A stretch of 6,014 nucleotides of DNA from an uncultured Lachnospiraceae bacterium (GTDB lineage Bacteria > Bacillota_A > Clostridia > Lachnospirales > Lachnospiraceae), in contig CAMOZF010000121.1 in the NCBI GenBank assembly GCA_946630765.1, positions 1-6,014 on the forward strand, written 5' to 3'. Made by a program: the position numbers and the translations under genes. The notes under the pieces were generated by a model, which made no database searches, was not told the origin of the DNA, and saw only the letters and a program-made list of their open reading frames with translations. Every line of letters starts with the position of its first letter. Position 1 is the stretch's first letter. Positions 1-5,874 of this stretch are shown piece after piece.

Positions 1-563
1 GGGTTTTTAATCTTGTCCGAAGCATAGCAGACGGTCGCACCGCCCATCGATACGCCGACAAGCAGGATCTTCTCCGCCTTCAGTTCCTGATCTGCATATT
101 CGATCCACGAGAGAACGTCATACTGCTCGCGCTGTCCGTAGCTGCAGACCCGGCCTTCACTCCCGAAAAAGGCCCGCTGGTGCACGAAAAGGATATTGAA
201 GCCCTGATCATAAAGGTCCTTTCCGAGGATTCCGTAGTTGTTGCCGACCGTCGTATGATAGCCGTGAAACAGGATCGCGGTCTTTTCGGATCCGGCGGAA
301 AGATAGCCGCCCTTCAGGCGGAAGCCCTCCCGGGAACGCACAGAGACATCCTGAAGCGGGAGGCTCCGGTACCAGTTCAGGCCCTCGTAAATCTTCGGAA
401 GATAGGGCCCGTACTGCGAAGAACTGAAGTCCTTTTTCACGCGGTCCAGATCCTCGCCCTCTCTTCCGGCATAGGTGTAGAGAAAGGCGATCAGAGAGGG
501 AAGAAAGCCAAAAAGAAGATATAAGCCGGCCGCAGCGCCGAGAATCCAAAAAAGGATTTTCAT
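1..563 (-). CDS. Membrane-anchored alpha/beta hydrolase, 3' end outside window (partial)
   Basis: This frame is open from an ATG at 563 to the left edge (187 residues seen), so the C-terminus with the expected catalytic Asp/His is missing. Residues 4-29 are a hydrophobic stretch (start MKILFWILGAAAGLYLLFGF) typical of a single N-terminal membrane anchor or uncleaved signal. The hydrolase core follows: FHGYHTT at 99-105 (oxyanion-hole region), HQRAFFGSEG at 128-137, matching the D-Q-R-x-x-G-x-S-x-G strand/turn of the family except that His replaces the usual Asp, and the nucleophile elbow GVSMGG at 170-175 with Ser172. This resembles the YqkD-like COG1073 group of Firmicute hydrolases, whose substrates are mostly unknown. 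The start overlaps the preceding stop as ATGA (563-560), with AGGA six bases upstream, so it is the last visible gene of the operon. In this context a lipase, esterase or thioesterase acting at the membrane is plausible but inferred. Confidence 0.88.
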   Translation of the reverse strand, partial: MKILFWILGAAAGLYLLFGFLPSLIAFLYTYAGREGEDLDRVKKDFSSSQYGPYLPKIYEGLNWYRSLPLQDVSVRSREGFRLKGGYLSAGSEKTAILFHGYHTTVGNNYGILGKDLYDQGFNILFVHQRAFFGSEGRVCSYGQREQYDVLSWIEYADQELKAEKILLVGVSMGGATVCYASDKIKN

Positions 564-1639
564 CTTACTTCCTGTTCCTCCAGTTCCGAAAGCGCGATCC
601 TTTCCGTTTTTCCGTCTCTTACCCGGTACAGCGTAAAAAGCTCCAGCTGATCGCCGGAAGCCGACAGCAGAAGCTCCGGATTTCCGGGGATCCTGCAGGT
701 TTTTCTGAGGTATTTCGCGGGATCAATCTGATCAGGAATGTATTTTTTACCGTCGTAGGCCTTGAAAATGCTCTCCTTCTGCGTCCAGCGCGTGAGAAAG
801 CGCATCAGCTCCTCAGGAAAGTCCAAAATGTCGCCGGAATCCGCTTCTTTCTCGGCAGGCGAGAGAATCCGCGTCTCAAGCTTCCGAAGCTTTTCCGGGG
901 CCTTTTCGTAGGTTTCCCGGCGTCTTCCGACATTCTCCACATCGACGCCGCAGGGTGCGTTTGAGACGACGACTGCACAGGCGCCCTCCGTGTGGGAAAG
1001 CGAGAAATAAAACTCCGGAACGGTCCATTTGCCCTCCCGGGTCTTTTTGAAATCGAGCGACTCGAAAGCATAGCCAAAAGACCGTGAAACCGCTTCCTCA
1101 AGAAGCTTCCAGACCGCGTAGCGCTGCCTTTTCACCGCCGGATTTCCGGTCAGAAGAAGCTCCCGGTTTCTCGATTTCGGGTAGATCTTTCCGACCTTCA
1201 GATCCTCCGGAATCTCTGCAAAGAAGACCGTAAACAGCGGGCGCTTGTTGTAGCGCTCCCGCGCCTTGTCCTCCTGCTCAGATCTCCGCTCACCGAAAAC
1301 GCATTCATTCACGAAATGCTCACAGTTATTGTGCAGCAGGCTGTAGCCGCCTTCCCCGACGCGGGCGCGCGCACGCGCGATCACCTCGCCTGGCGCGAGC
1401 GCTTTCTTCTTCTCCGAAACATTCATGACACCCCGCTCGACAAAGGCCCCCGCGCAGAAAACGTCAATATCCGTCGATACCACGCGGACATCCGAGTCCT
1501 TCTGCCCGAGAATGTTCACCGGAGGATAGCCAAAGGCGATCACTTCCTCTTCCGAGACAAATATTCCGTAATGATACACGGAGCCAATCTTCACGCGGAT
1601 GATGTCCGCAGGATGCAGCTCCTCCGGCAGCCATTTCAT
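560..1639 (-). CDS. LRAT/NlpC-like Cys-His domain fused to Sfp-type 4'-phosphopantetheinyl transferase
   Basis: This 359-residue protein has two domains. Residues about 8-115 match the lecithin-retinol acyltransferase (LRAT) branch of the NlpC/P60 superfamily: His23 in VYHYGIFV and the hallmark HNNCEHF at 103-109 with Cys106 as the presumed nucleophile. LRAT-type enzymes move or hydrolyse acyl groups through a Cys thioester. Residues about 132-359 are a Sfp-type phosphopantetheinyl transferase, which transfers phosphopantetheine from CoA to a carrier-protein serine: SHTEG at 215-219, GVDVE at 231-235 (Mg2+ ligands) and WTQKESIFK at 285-293 (W-x-x-KES-x-x-K). All key residues of both domains look intact, and the joint is one unbroken frame. 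The start ATG overlaps the ACP stop (ATGA, 1639-1636), with GAGG ten bases upstream. Two carrier-protein serines encoded in the same operon are the obvious substrates of the second domain. The role of the first domain (transferase, hydrolase or thioesterase) cannot be told from sequence. Confidence 0.92.
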   Translation of the reverse strand: MKWLPEELHPADIIRVKIGSVYHYGIFVSEEEVIAFGYPPVNILGQKDSDVRVVSTDIDVFCAGAFVERGVMNVSEKKKALAPGEVIARARARVGEGGYSLLHNNCEHFVNECVFGERRSEQEDKARERYNKRPLFTVFFAEIPEDLKVGKIYPKSRNRELLLTGNPAVKRQRYAVWKLLEEAVSRSFGYAFESLDFKKTREGKWTVPEFYFSLSHTEGACAVVVSNAPCGVDVENVGRRRETYEKAPEKLRKLETRILSPAEKEADSGDILDFPEELMRFLTRWTQKESIFKAYDGKKYIPDQIDPAKYLRKTCRIPGNPELLLSASGDQLELFTLYRVRDGKTERIALSELEEQEVR

Positions 1640-1887
1640 TTCAGCTTTTCCTCAATGTAGTCTACAACCTGTCCGAGCTTCTTGAAATCACCGATTCCGA
1701 CCTCCTCAAAGCGGATGCCGAAGCTCTCCTCGATGTCAATGACCATGTAGAGAAGGCCGACCGAATTAAAGCCGAAATCCTCCACAAGATCCATGTCCTC
1801 GGTGCAGTTTTCAATCAGTTCGCGCTTCCTGTCATCCTCCTGAAGAAGGATTTCTTTGAGGCGTTCGATAATTTCCTGTCTGTCCAT
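1636..1887 (-). CDS. Stand-alone acyl carrier protein
   Basis: This is an 83-residue acidic, all-helical acyl carrier protein. The phosphopantetheine site is at 38-44, FGFNSVG, with Ser42 as the attachment residue. The usual Asp just before the serine (D-S-L) is Asn here (N-S-V), which departs from housekeeping AcpP and is typical of specialised carriers. Helix I (2-16), helix II after Ser42 (IDIEESFGIRF) and a C-terminal helix (VVDYIEEKLK) are evident. I chose the ATG at 1887 because AAGGGAG lies just upstream at good spacing and the protein then has normal ACP length; an in-frame GTG at 1935 would add 16 basic residues unlike ACP and has poorer support. With this start there are 51 bases after the upstream acyltransferase stop, the longest gap in the operon. 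It is probably modified by the phosphopantetheinyl transferase encoded next and used by the ligase and acyltransferases as acyl donor. The choice of partner is inference. Confidence 0.93.
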   Translation of the reverse strand: MDRQEIIERLKEILLQEDDRKRELIENCTEDMDLVEDFGFNSVGLLYMVIDIEESFGIRFEEVGIGDFKKLGQVVDYIEEKLK

Positions 1888-1938
1888 TCTTTTCTCCCTT
1901 CTGCCAAAAATCACGCCCGAAAGGGGGATTTTCACGAG

Positions 1939-2610
1939 TTATTCGCCTTCCACCACGCGCCGAAGCTTCTCGAAGCGCTCCTGAAGGATTCTGGTAATCT
2001 CCTCAATCTCCTGCAGCGACGGGCGTTTTCCGTAGAAGGACGCCACGTCCACCGGCTCGCCGACGGCGGCCTCGAGTCTTGAGAAGACGGTTTTTCTTTT
2101 TTTCAGATACATCGGAATGATCGGCGTCCCGGCCATGAGAGACATCAGAACCATCCCGGACTTGAACTGCTCAATGTCCGCATTCTGCGCGGTGGAGGTA
2201 TTAATATGCCCCTCCGGGAACATCGATACCAGCTCTCCCGCCCGAAGGTGCGCGGCAATCTCGCGGATCGTCGCCGTTCCGGTATTCTCCTTGTCTACCG
2301 GAATGCACTGGAAGCAGTTGAAAATAAAGGCGAGAAGCGGCTTTTGATAGAACTCCTTCGTACAGATGAAGTGGTGGTTCCGGTGCCAGATGATAAACAT
2401 CATGTATAAAGGGTCCACATTGGTATGATGGTTCGATATCAGAAGCGCGCCGCCTTTGATGCGGTACTTCTTTCCTTCCGGATAGTGGACCTTCGGCCGG
2501 AAAAGAAGCATCGCCGGCGCTGCGGTGATCTTCACGAACCAGAAGCCCGCCTTATACACAATCTGCATAAGGCGCTCTTTCAGCGGTTTTTTCTGTCCGG
2601 AAGACTTCAT
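1939..2610 (-). CDS. PlsC-type (LPLAT) acyltransferase, second copy
   Basis: This 223-residue protein belongs to the PlsC/LPLAT glycerolipid acyltransferase family, which transfers an acyl group from acyl-ACP or acyl-CoA to a lysophospholipid or similar hydroxyl acceptor at the inner face of the membrane. Motif I is NHHTNVD (60-66, H61-x4-D66), motif II region IPVDKE (103-108), motif III FPEGHI (131-136, close to canonical FPEGTR), a following FKSG (149-152), and motif IV TPIIP (162-166). Residues 15-37 are hydrophobic and probably associate with the membrane; the N-terminus is basic. Its start overlaps the stop of the upstream paralogue (ATGA, 2610-2607), with AGGAG and AGGG upstream. It shares an N-terminal signature with that paralogue (KITA-x-PA, then FRxK and HY), so the pair arose by duplication or shares a subfamily. 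All catalytic motifs are intact. Acceptor specificity is unknown. Confidence 0.92.
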   Translation of the reverse strand: MKSSGQKKPLKERLMQIVYKAGFWFVKITAAPAMLLFRPKVHYPEGKKYRIKGGALLISNHHTNVDPLYMMFIIWHRNHHFICTKEFYQKPLLAFIFNCFQCIPVDKENTGTATIREIAAHLRAGELVSMFPEGHINTSTAQNADIEQFKSGMVLMSLMAGTPIIPMYLKKRKTVFSRLEAAVGEPVDVASFYGKRPSLQEIEEITRILQERFEKLRRVVEGE

Positions 2611-3257
2611 TTCTTTACCCTGCTCCTTTTCTCAAGCTCCTTCATCAGGTCGATCACGCGGTCTCGCATCGCATCGTTCACCCTTGAAATATTCTCCTTT
2701 TCGGAGCAGTCGTCCGAAAGAAATTCCTGCACGTTCATCGGCTTTCCGATCAGCACCTCGGCGCGCTTTTTGAAGTTGAAGTACGAGCCGTTCGTCACGA
2801 CCGGAATCACCGGCACCTCCGCGCGAAGCGCCGTAAATGCTGCCGAGGTCTTGAATGGAAGCGGCCGGGATTCTTCAGGTCTCGGGATCCGGCTTTCCGG
2901 AAAGATACCGACAACACCGCCCTTTTTCAGAATTCTGCAGCTTTTTTCGACAAAGCCGAAATCAAAGCTGTTCCGATCGACGCGGATGCCCCCGAGAAGC
3001 CGCAGAAGCCACCCGAGCGGCTTCTTCTCGAAAAGAAGCTCCGCCATCTGGACCCGTAAGGTCCTCGACCAGAAAACAAAAAGGTACACCGCGTAGTCAA
3101 AAACCGAGGTATGGTTGGAAATGATGATCGCGGGTCCCTTGATCATTCTTCCCTGAACTGCCCGGTCCTCATAGTGAATCTTCGTGCGAAAGCAGAAAAA
3201 CTGGGCCGGCCAGGCTGTGATTTTCGTAAACCAATTCCAGAAACAACTCCAGAACAT
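2607..3257 (-). CDS. PlsC-type (LPLAT) acyltransferase, first copy
   Basis: This 216-residue protein is a PlsC/LPLAT-family acyltransferase. Motif I is NHTSVFD (48-54, H49-x4-D54), motif II GGIRVDR (89-95), motif III FPESR (119-123, with Ser-Arg where FPEGTR is usual) and motif IV VPVIP (148-152). The N-terminus (FWSCFWNWF, then KITAWPAQFF) is aromatic and hydrophobic and probably sits in the membrane interface; the C-terminus is basic (KRSRVKK). I prefer the ATG at 3257, one base after the ligase stop (TAG-A-ATG), with GGGG seven bases upstream. An in-frame ATG at 3284, inside the ligase gene, would add nine residues and has a weaker ribosome site. The four-base overlap with the next gene and the shared N-terminal signature make the two acyltransferases a coupled pair, possibly acting in sequence on two positions of one acceptor. 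That division of labour is inferred. Confidence 0.92.
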   Translation of the reverse strand: MFWSCFWNWFTKITAWPAQFFCFRTKIHYEDRAVQGRMIKGPAIIISNHTSVFDYAVYLFVFWSRTLRVQMAELLFEKKPLGWLLRLLGGIRVDRNSFDFGFVEKSCRILKKGGVVGIFPESRIPRPEESRPLPFKTSAAFTALRAEVPVIPVVTNGSYFNFKKRAEVLIGKPMNVQEFLSDDCSEKENISRVNDAMRDRVIDLMKELEKRSRVKK

Positions 3258-3258
3258 T

Positions 3259-5214
3259 CTACATCCCCGCCTTGATATATTCATAGATTTCCCGAAGCGT
3301 ATTCAGGCTCTTCCCGCCTTCGACAGGGAAGGTCACCGAGAACTCCTTCTCGAGCTCCGCGATCAGCGCGAAATAGTCGAGGCTCGTGCCGCCAAGATCG
3401 AGGAAGAAGTCCGCCGTGTAGGGAATCTCCGCCGGATTCTTCTGAACCGCCGCCGCGAACATCGCGCGGATCCTCGGAAGGATCGGATCATCCGGCGCCT
3501 GGTCATTTCTCGCCTTTTCCGGGTCAAGAAGCGTGATCTCCCCGCTTCCCAGTACTCTCGAGAGCCGCCGCCGGTTCAGCTTGAATTCATCGCCCTTCAG
3601 AAGCTCCTCGCCGGTAAAATAAATCTTCCGCACCTCGGAGCTGAGTTTCAGCTCCACAAGCTTCGTCCGCACGGCTTCCCGGATCTCCAGAAGCTTTTCA
3701 CTCGTACTGAACTTGTTGACCGAGAGAAGCAGCACCGGCTTTACCGCGCCGTCTGTCGGCATACCGAGCATCGCAAGCTCCCGCACGCCGGGAACCATCA
3801 GCTTCGGCTCGAGAAGGTTCGGATTCAGGTTCTCGCCGGAAGCGCCGACAATCAGGTCGTCCTTCCTGCCGAGAATATAATAATTTCCGTCATGCTCCTC
3901 CGCAAGGTCATGGGAATTGAACCACTCCGGACGGTCCATCCGCTTTCCGTCGACAATGACGAAATGCGCCAGACTTTCGCCCTGGATCTCCAGCTCCTGA
4001 TCCCCGTTGATCCTGTAGCGGATCGATGTGAGCGGCTTTCCGACCGAGCCCGAATTCAGCGTTCCCGGATGGTCCGTCTGCTCGACGGAAGTGATGCCGA
4101 TCTCCGACATACCGTAGCCATTGCTCAGATGATAGCCGATGCCGTTGAAGAAGCGCAGCACCTCCGGCCGGATCGCACCGCCGCCGCTGATCAGGAAGGA
4201 AATGCTCTCCCCGAAAAGGTTCTCCCGCACCTCCGCGAAGGCCTTTTTACTGAAAGCCCGCGAAAGCTTCGGCATCTTTTCAAGCTTATCGGCAATCCGA
4301 AGGCCCCGCTGGAACTTTGCAAAGGTCTCGTCGCCGCGCTTCTTGATCGTACTGATCGCCTGCTGGTAAACCTTTTCCCAGAAAAGCGGAACCGCGAAAA
4401 TATGCGTCACCTGATGCCTGCGGATCGTATTGACAATCGTCTCCGGTGCCATGTCCCGAAGCTCCACAAAGGTTCTCGAGAAGAAGGCGAACCAGGTGTA
4501 CACGGCCACCAGCCCGAAAATATGGTAAAAAGGAAGGAAGCACAGCTGCTTCAGTTCCCCGTCATAGTGCCTTTTCATCAGCGTGCAGTCGCGCACGATT
4601 TCCCGGGCATTCCGGATGATATGGTAAAATTCCTCGCCCGTATACGCACAGATCTTCACATGCTCGGAGGTTCCCGAGGACATGACGTAGATCGCCTCGC
4701 CGAAAGGATCGTCTGCGATCGCCTCGCTGTAAACCTTCGCTTCCTCAGCGGATGCCGGCACAATGTCCTTCACAAGAACCGTCGGCAGATCGAAGCGCAG
4801 TCCATCCGACACCACCGCCGCGGCGCCCGCCGAACGGAGCGCGGAAAGCAGTACCTCCCGGTCAAGGCGCATATTCAGGAAAAGCGGACTGTGGCCCGCC
4901 CGAAGAATCGTCCAGAACATCTCGATCCATTCGATCGAATTCTCCATATAGACGCCGATCACCGAATGCGCCGGAATCCCTTCAAGAAGCCGTGAAAGCG
5001 TCACAGTTTTCTGCTCGATCGCAGCTCTGCACTGTCCGTAGGTTGTTTTCTGGATCCGGTAACCCGTGCTCCGCTCATACATCACATTGTTCTCTTCCGA
5101 GAAAAACAGCGGGAAAATTCCCTTAAAGCTATGCTCGGTCTCTTCCAGTTTCCGGATCTTCTGCTCGACGAACTCGTCAATTGACGCACATCCGGCAATA
5201 TTCTCGAGTGCCAT
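3259..5214 (-). CDS. AMP-forming acyl ligase with C-terminal acyl-carrier domain
   Basis: This 651-residue protein of the ANL (AMP-binding) superfamily activates a carboxylic acid with ATP and should load it as a thioester. Core motifs: A3-like SSGTSEHVK at 179-187, A5 NGYGMSE at 365-371, A7-like NSHD at 433-436, A8 LGRKDDLIVGASGEN at 448-462 and an A10-like FKLNRRRL at 544-551 with Lys545 the likely catalytic lysine. The phosphate loop deviates from the usual SGTTGxPKG: Glu184, Val186 and Ile188 replace Gly, Pro and Gly, though the lysine stays. Residues about 575-651 form a carrier-protein domain with LGGTSLDY at 607-614 and Ser611 as the phosphopantetheine site. The fusion suggests loading in cis. 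It is the first gene of the operon; AGAGGA lies just before the ATG at 5214 and a promoter lies about 30-58 bases upstream. There is no transmembrane segment. A long-chain acyl substrate is inferred from the acyltransferase neighbours; an aryl or amino acid is not excluded. Confidence 0.93.
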   Translation of the reverse strand: MALENIAGCASIDEFVEQKIRKLEETEHSFKGIFPLFFSEENNVMYERSTGYRIQKTTYGQCRAAIEQKTVTLSRLLEGIPAHSVIGVYMENSIEWIEMFWTILRAGHSPLFLNMRLDREVLLSALRSAGAAAVVSDGLRFDLPTVLVKDIVPASAEEAKVYSEAIADDPFGEAIYVMSSGTSEHVKICAYTGEEFYHIIRNAREIVRDCTLMKRHYDGELKQLCFLPFYHIFGLVAVYTWFAFFSRTFVELRDMAPETIVNTIRRHQVTHIFAVPLFWEKVYQQAISTIKKRGDETFAKFQRGLRIADKLEKMPKLSRAFSKKAFAEVRENLFGESISFLISGGGAIRPEVLRFFNGIGYHLSNGYGMSEIGITSVEQTDHPGTLNSGSVGKPLTSIRYRINGDQELEIQGESLAHFVIVDGKRMDRPEWFNSHDLAEEHDGNYYILGRKDDLIVGASGENLNPNLLEPKLMVPGVRELAMLGMPTDGAVKPVLLLSVNKFSTSEKLLEIREAVRTKLVELKLSSEVRKIYFTGEELLKGDEFKLNRRRLSRVLGSGEITLLDPEKARNDQAPDDPILPRIRAMFAAAVQKNPAEIPYTADFFLDLGGTSLDYFALIAELEKEFSVTFPVEGGKSLNTLREIYEYIKAGM

Positions 5215-5325: not shown

Positions 5326-5385
5326 AAAAAAATCCCGATCGGAGTTAATTTCCAGCCACTTTACGGAAATCATCCCCGATCGGGA
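5326..5385 (-). terminator. Rho-independent terminator of the small upstream gene
   Basis: Ten perfect base pairs join 5376-5385 and 5333-5342 (TCCCGATCGG against CCGATCGGGA). The long arm between them holds a further six-pair inner stem (ATTTCC/GGAAAT), and seven U follow in the minus direction (plus-strand A at 5326-5332). The final codons and stop of the interrupted small gene lie in the upstream arm of the stem. It insulates the acyl operon from minus-strand transcription arriving from the right. On the plus strand the stem lacks a U tract, so it acts in one direction. Confidence 0.85.
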
Positions 5386-5821: not shown

Positions 5822-5874
5822 GTTTTTACTGTCGTTTACTGTTTTAACAAGTTTTTACTGTCGTTTACTGTTTT
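5822..5874. repeat. 29-bp tandem repeat with evenly spaced TTTACTGT words
   Basis: A 24-base unit beginning GTTTTTACTGTCG occurs at 5822-5845 and again, identical, at 5851-5874 (period 29). Each unit carries TTTACTGT twice, ten bases apart (5825, 5835, 5854, 5864), one helical turn. Further ACTGT words lie at 5795-5799 and 5891-5895. Two near-identical promoter-like arrangements on the minus strand overlap these words, so they look like binding sites of a repressor or activator; iterons of a replication or excision function are another reading. Confidence 0.8.

Follow-up and report, generated by a model that had tools for sequence, protein, structure and literature searches.

Background

ATP-driven loading of fatty acids onto a carrier protein, coupled to acyl transfer, is known from E. 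coli Aas and Vibrio AasS. The nearest described system to the one reported here is that of the Lactobacillales, for which the sections of PMC6509188 drawn on here describe FakA/FakB, PlsX, PlsY and PlsC together with an auxiliary, AcpB-type carrier; Lactobacillus johnsonii, which is without fatty-acid synthesis, keeps AcpS. Here we describe an operon on a 6,014-nucleotide stretch of DNA from an uncultured Lachnospiraceae bacterium (assembly GCA_946630765.1, contig CAMOZF010000121.1), which was analysed at its full length and is called the window below. In order of transcription the operon encodes an AMP-forming ligase that ends in a carrier domain (LIG1), two PlsC-type acyltransferases (AT1 and AT2), a free acyl carrier protein (ACP), a fusion of a lecithin retinol acyltransferase (LRAT/PLAAT-type) domain with a 4'-phosphopantetheinyl transferase (PPTase), designated LRPP, and an alpha/beta hydrolase (HYD). 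On balance, we regard these as the opening six genes of a locus with which uncultured gut Clostridia salvage fatty acids and acylate lipids.

With Aas and AasS the operon would share ATP-driven carrier loading and acyl transfer. Unlike in Aas, the functions are held by separate genes and the ligase bears a carrier of its own; against the curated model of bifunctional Aas the two acyltransferases scored 17.7 and 17.5 bits, below the cut-off of 886. The likeness to the FakAB-AcpB system of the Lactobacillales, as far as PMC6509188 was drawn on, is closer, in that both have an external fatty acid, a kinase, a carrier and PlsC-type acylation without synthesis. What the present locus adds is the ligase-carrier fusion, usually a second ligase (LIG2), two more acyltransferases and the LRAT-PPTase fusion.

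Uncultured gut Bacilli of the RF39 group are reported in the relevant part of PMC6784871 to be without fatty-acid synthesis, and are thought to use external fatty acids. The bacteria considered here are likewise uncultured gut organisms without synthesis, but RF39 belongs to a different class and that part of the paper describes no such operon. How rumen bacteria incorporate external fatty acids is, according to an extract of PMC12394162, largely unexplored. In open-licence PubMed Central no account of this operon was found, nor any pairing of 'lecithin retinol acyltransferase' with 'phosphopantetheinyl'; most hits were judged from their listing. The gene cluster is widely conserved and, it appears, undescribed. 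It offers a concrete set of genes by which many uncultured Clostridia of the rumen and gut may manage without fatty-acid synthesis, and leads to the prediction that such Clostridia require a fatty-acid supplement in culture. Since Hazlewood and Dawson in 1979 reported a rumen Butyrivibrio that requires fatty acids (as cited in the same part of PMC6784871), the link between locus and requirement should be testable in culture.

Genomes compared

A scan of contigs gave 247 relatives, and the best 80 loci were kept as the comparison set. By their record titles these are mostly drafts of rumen and gut Clostridia, together with two spirochaetes. Genome tests were made for 70 of the 80 loci (20 in a first batch and then 50), the ten left out being the shortest among the 60 outside the first batch. 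The other genome tests used subsets, and the size of the subset is given with each count.

The operon and its conservation

The six genes lie on the minus strand, from 5214 to beyond 3, and overlap or are separated by very short gaps (Table 1). Every gene named in an earlier note on this DNA was found with Pfam or NCBIfam on the minus strand of 1-5214. That note had listed two carriers, an arming enzyme and an LRAT-like domain. Both carriers are present, but one is the tail of the ligase and not a separate gene, and the LRAT domain, also present, is joined to the arming enzyme in the single protein LRPP. It had further read each family from intact motifs; the families hold, but the second histidine of the LRAT domain is alanine in the window and the ATP loop of the ligase is unusual. 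The free carrier scored 20.4 bits against PF00550, slightly below the cut-off of 20.8, and 41.9 bits against the NCBIfam acyl-carrier model, for which the cut-off is 70.

Table 1. Genes and domains of the operon, with positions in the window
Feature	Coordinates	Strand	Basis
LIG1: AMP-forming ligase (PF00501) with C-terminal carrier domain (PF00550, residues 581-647)	3259..5214	-	Pfam
Carrier domain of LIG1, about residues 578-651, DLGGTSLDY	3262..3483	-	Pfam, alignment, PDB profile matches
AT1: PlsC-type acyltransferase, NHTSVFD and FPES motifs	2607..3284	-	PF01553, 76 bits
AT2: PlsC-type acyltransferase, NHHTNVD and FPEG motifs	1939..2610	-	PF01553, 78 bits; motifs from translation
Free acyl carrier protein, FGFNSVGLL, 83 aa, ATG at 1887	1636..1887	-	Family models
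LRPP: LRAT/PLAAT-type domain fused to Sfp-type 4'-phosphopantetheinyl transferase	560..1639	-	PF04970 and PF01648
LRAT/PLAAT domain of LRPP; H23 and C106	1250..1639	-	Alignment, fold
Phosphopantetheinyl transferase domain of LRPP; FSLSH, GVDVE, WTQKES	605..1243	-	Alignment, fold
HYD: alpha/beta hydrolase, hydrophobic N-terminal stretch, truncated by the window edge	3..563	-	PF00561/PF12146; stretch from translation

Across the loci the conserved order is LIG1-AT-AT-(LIG2)-ACP-LRPP. LIG1, then an acyltransferase, then LRPP were found in 49 of the 55 loci with 6 kb upstream, and among the 74 loci with room an acyltransferase lay upstream in 72 and LIG2 in 66. A carrier directly precedes LRPP in 77 of the 80 loci, the exceptions being L001 (at a contig edge), L036 and L065; L036 retains LRPP alone, after histidine genes. 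The gene order, which the earlier note had proposed to look for in other Clostridia, recurs in nearly all of the 80 loci that are long enough to show it, and the operon in the window is therefore not a chance arrangement.

Downstream, LRPP, HYD and DegV are consecutive in 40 of the 80 loci. The fetched stretches, many of which are short, contained DegV in 45, FakA in 40 and a GPH-type transporter in 51 of the 80; where the downstream DNA was sufficient, DegV follows in 39 of 67 loci and FakA in 31 of 54. Further hydrolases also recur beyond the window in relatives. DegV, FakA and the transporter were identified in L019 with Pfam and NCBIfam, where the FakA neighbour has the DAK2 domain and the FakA middle and C-terminal domains and scored 483.9 bits against the YloV model TIGR03599 (cut-off 396.1). 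The view that the pathway was complete as first seen is not supported, as the window edge truncates HYD and the relatives add LIG2, DegV/FakB, the transporter, FakA and more hydrolases.

The arrangement varies between lineages. In that of L017, L021 and L030 the transporter comes after LIG1, and FakA and DegV are not adjacent. In the spirochaete L079, FakA, DegV and HYD adjoin the same core on the opposite strand. Also in L079 (8346-11959), LRPP is followed by a gene to which Pfam gave no match, and then by an MMPL/HpnN-like transporter that might serve in lipid export. A search of viral contigs gave 104 pattern matches, none of them a relative, and in plasmids eight records matched the LRAT part only, none reaching 80% query cover.

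Fatty-acid synthesis in locus-bearing genomes

Ketosynthase (PF00109) was clearly present in 17 of the 70 locus-bearing genomes, five had a weak partial match and 48 had none. FabD (PF00698) was present in exactly the same 17 genomes, so that 53 of the 70 (including the five with weak ketosynthase pieces) have neither a clear ketosynthase nor FabD. Neither was found in the window's three nearest relatives, L001 to L003. As a baseline, 291 genomes from the class of L002's genome were used, 220 with a ketosynthase match and 71 without. Genomes with no match accordingly numbered 48 of 70 among the locus-bearing and 71 of 291 in the class (Fisher p ~9e-12, uncorrected for kinship and overstating the contrast because the genomes are related). 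When weak matches were set aside on both sides, which affected eight more baseline genomes with E above 1e-8, the figures became 53 of 70 and 79 of 291. Five changes on the LRPP tree are needed to account for the label 'has ketosynthase'. Missing DNA hardly accounts for the absence of the synthesis genes, since PlsY was recovered in 19 and PlsX in 17 of the 20 genomes of the first batch.

The suggestion in the earlier note that chains are taken up rather than built is supported by the absence of FabD and of a clear ketosynthase in these 53 genomes, together with FakA in half of the 80 loci. In locus-bearing bacteria the acyl chains are very probably imported.

The ketosynthases found in G015:C43 and G345:C196 are not the usual FabF: they are two-domain reading frames of approximately 770-800 aa and share their contig with FabD.

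LRPP and the arming of the carriers

The LRAT half of LRPP has the permuted NlpC/P60 (PLAAT-type) fold, with the catalytic histidine and the cysteine of the NCEHF motif, and the other half has the pseudo-dimeric Sfp-type fold with the metal/CoA residues of GxDxE and WxxKE. H23 and C106 are invariant in all 81 LRPP sequences, the window's included. The second catalytic histidine, the position of which was set by alignment to PLAAT3, is replaced in every sequence, by Gln in 59, by Ala in 18 (as in the window) and by Glu in four. LRPP thus differs from human PLAAT/HRASLS in being bacterial, in being fused to a PPTase and in having Gln, Ala or Glu as the third triad residue. Xu et al. suggest, in the section of PMC3142127 used here, that the third residue is possibly not essential in LRAT. 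A bacterial protein of the permuted NlpC/P60 type, LnsA of S. aureus, is described in part of PMC7387801 as needed for lipoprotein N-acylation.

PPTase matches were assigned to LRPP by their coordinates, and G326, which fitted two places, was counted as having another PPTase. A match lies inside LRPP in all 53 genomes without synthesis, although three of these (in L015, L025 and L029) are below the cut-off. In 37 of the 53, LRPP was the only PPTase found, unlike in L. johnsonii, which keeps AcpS according to the sections of PMC6509188 already mentioned. Among the 17 genomes with synthesis, twelve lack a PPTase match in LRPP, and each of these has one elsewhere; the other five keep the match in LRPP, three of them without any other.

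The earlier note had taken the arming enzyme to be private to the pathway. Free carriers outside the core operon were found in all 14 of the genomes without synthesis that were examined. In six of the 14 a carrier stands directly after PlsX, a further likeness to the Lactobacillales system, and G016 has an extra free carrier on the contig of the operon itself, a few kb upstream from LIG1. The possibility that the operon's carriers are the cell's only ones was rejected on these counts. As LRPP is the sole PPTase found in most genomes without synthesis and other free carriers are present, it would have to serve those carriers too, and the view that it is private is not supported.

In one clade with fatty-acid synthesis, GxDxE and KE of LRPP are visibly degraded, the LRAT residues are intact and a separate PPTase is present. 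The clade, which together with the untested L063 has 100/100 support, contains 11 of the 12 synthesis genomes that have no PPTase match in LRPP. The twelfth, L033, lies outside it and the PPTase motifs of its LRPP are partly degraded. Because 11 of the 12 fall in one clade, loss of the PPTase half is, judging from the sequences, to be counted as a single main event and not as twelve. A clade with synthesis and another arming enzyme that drops the PPTase half and keeps the LRAT half provides a natural split of the new enzyme fusion.

Decay of this kind is what would be expected if the PPTase domain were a passenger, ie if LRPP served mainly as an LRAT enzyme and had been fused by chance, its halves sharing no function, and three more LRPPs that match the PPTase profile only below the cut-off agree with this. 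We consider such an explanation very improbable, as at least 60 of the 64 LRPP rows outside the 17 synthesis-bearing genomes retain the catalytic residues of the PPTase, and as no other PPTase was found in 37 of the 53 genomes without synthesis.

The three matches below the Pfam cut-off, in L015, L025 and L029, scored 22.5-23 bits. Each of these genomes has a second PPTase, and they are possibly cases of early PPTase decay without fatty-acid synthesis.

Points against salvage, and a possible parallel route

A number of results weigh against fatty-acid salvage, or against the operon as the only route for it. The absence of synthesis genes and the genes beyond the edge were read in relatives, the window's own genome being outside the set, and all the genomes compared are drafts whose completeness is not stated. 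Fatty-acid synthesis is present in 17 of the 70 locus-bearing genomes. In the controls PF00109 gave matches in 14 of 14 named genomes, archaea included, and PF00698 in 10 of 14; the PF00109 profile alone is loose, since it responds in archaea too. FakA does not follow in 23 of the 54 loci with 6 kb downstream. The FakA neighbour in L019 reached 355 of the 975 bits of the stricter FakA_VfrB model, and DegV was far below the FakB1 cut-off. LIG1 is closest to structures of types other than the fatty-acid ligases (see below), which bears on the proposed fatty-acid substrate. In addition, 69 of the 291 class genomes lack both a ketosynthase match and a full-length LRPP, and the proposal that loss of synthesis requires the operon was therefore rejected. 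The LRPP scan of the 291 genomes gave only two full-length rows among 20, those of G002 (the centre) and G020; the remaining 18 are partial, 17 covering mainly the PPTase part and one the LRAT part. As loss of synthesis does not need the locus, the operon must do something extra.

PlsC-type enzymes were found outside the operon in all 22 of the genomes without synthesis examined for them, so the operon is not the only phospholipid route, and the idea that its acyltransferases are the cell's only PlsC was dropped. FakA matches were present in 35 of 36 genomes, and by hand count 28 of the 36 have at least two matches of at least 100 bits; in G007 one extra FakA has PlsX and a carrier close by. 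Because PlsC-type enzymes and FakA copies occur elsewhere in the genomes, the operon looks like a second, parallel route beside that of PlsX, PlsY and PlsC. The separate enzymes and extra copies favour a parallel and dedicated route, and keep the idea of a dedicated lipid alive.

The ligases and the nature of the product

All 21 aligned LIG1 rows share E371 (the glutamate of GYGMTE), D436, R450, K545 (a late lysine) and S611 (the serine of the carrier), presumably in the roles usual for the ligase family. The ATP loop has the unusual form MSSGTSxHVK. The PDB profile matches of LIG1 have OSB-CoA ligase on top, with chlorobenzoate ligases and structures of the nonribosomal peptide synthetase (NRPS) type also near, and include the adenylation-thiolation (A-T) units of linear gramicidin synthase and McyG as well as carboxylic acid reductase. 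Fatty-acid carrier structures are among the matches of its carrier domain. LIG2, a separate ligase of approximately 505 residues with FadD13 as its best match, is present in most relatives; it is not in the operon of the window, L002 or L003, the search having covered the operon.

These matches, the A-T shape of LIG1 and the carrier motif DLGGTSLDY, which resembles that of NRPS units, would suit a pathway dedicated to a special lipid or lipopeptide-like product. The ligase-carriers would then act as A-T units loading amino or aryl acids in addition to fatty acids, and the acyltransferases and the LRAT domain would use imported fatty acids to build an acylated molecule outside housekeeping. One database name (for P0143) is 'non-ribosomal peptide synthetase', and the PlsC-type enzymes and FakA copies outside the operon are compatible with this. 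On the other hand, the recurring families identified in the loci are a fatty-acid kinase, DegV, a transporter and hydrolases, with no condensation or tailoring gene among them (not all of the rarer neighbours were identified), and the carrier domain of LIG1 matches fatty-acid carrier structures as well. We think a special product of this kind unlikely, though it is the alternative to be taken most seriously.

The PLAAT-type fold of the LRAT half and the several hydrolases of the locus also bring to mind lipid repair or turnover, in which these enzymes would deacylate damaged or unwanted lipids and the ligase and acyltransferases would re-acylate them, in the manner of E. coli Aas. Against PRK08633, a model of the Aas type, the two acyltransferases reached 87 and 42 bits, far short of the cut-off of 1221. 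Repair alone would leave unexplained both the link with absent synthesis and the adjacency of FakA and DegV, and we judge it improbable.

Proposed pathway

Domain make-up, folds, gene order, neighbours, the absence of ketosynthase and FabD, and the PPTase counts were computed directly; all of the reactions in the salvage pathway set out here are inferred. Anchored hydrolases would free fatty acids from lipids outside the cell or in the membrane. The ligase would activate the fatty acid and load it onto its own tail carrier and probably onto the free carrier, and the DegV/FakB-FakA kinase, encoded just beyond the window's stretch in relatives, would activate fatty acid as acyl-phosphate. From their family, the two PlsC-like enzymes are expected to transfer acyl groups to an acceptor of the glycerol-phosphate type. 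The PPTase half of LRPP, with its intact motifs and fold, would arm the carriers, and in most locus-bearing genomes without synthesis it would arm every other carrier too, being the only PPTase found. The LRAT half, given its PLAAT-like fold and Cys/His pair, most likely works at the membrane's cytosolic face, where it would form or break an acyl bond by way of an acyl-Cys intermediate.

A more specific scheme is put forward tentatively, as one that may well prove wrong: LRPP would arm all the carriers, and its LRAT half would move acyl groups from the acyl-carriers to a membrane lipid or amine, giving gut Clostridia that have lost fatty-acid synthesis a second, undescribed route that runs on imported fatty acids and makes a lipid class found in these bacteria alone.

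Other features of the window

No matches were found to Rfam in the window and no tRNA was detected in it. PADLOC gave no match for any of the six operon proteins, and a defence role for the operon was dropped.

Upstream of the operon, at 5333-5385, there is an inverted repeat with arms of 21 nt, 86% complementary and separated by an 11-nt spacer (TCCCGATCGG...CCGATCGGGA), which is possibly a terminator or a binding site. A TATAAT hexamer lies at 5249-5244 on the minus strand, about 30 nt ahead of the LIG1 start, with a weak -35 element; the promoter scan did not flag it. In an AT-rich upstream stretch (5822-5874) the 24-nt direct repeat GTTTTTACTGTCGTTTACTGTTTT occurs in two identical copies, the starts of which are 29 nt apart. 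Between 5370 and 5745 on the minus strand there are two short reading frames, in differing frames and the first preceded by a strong site resembling a ribosome-binding site, which may be the remnants of a small gene.

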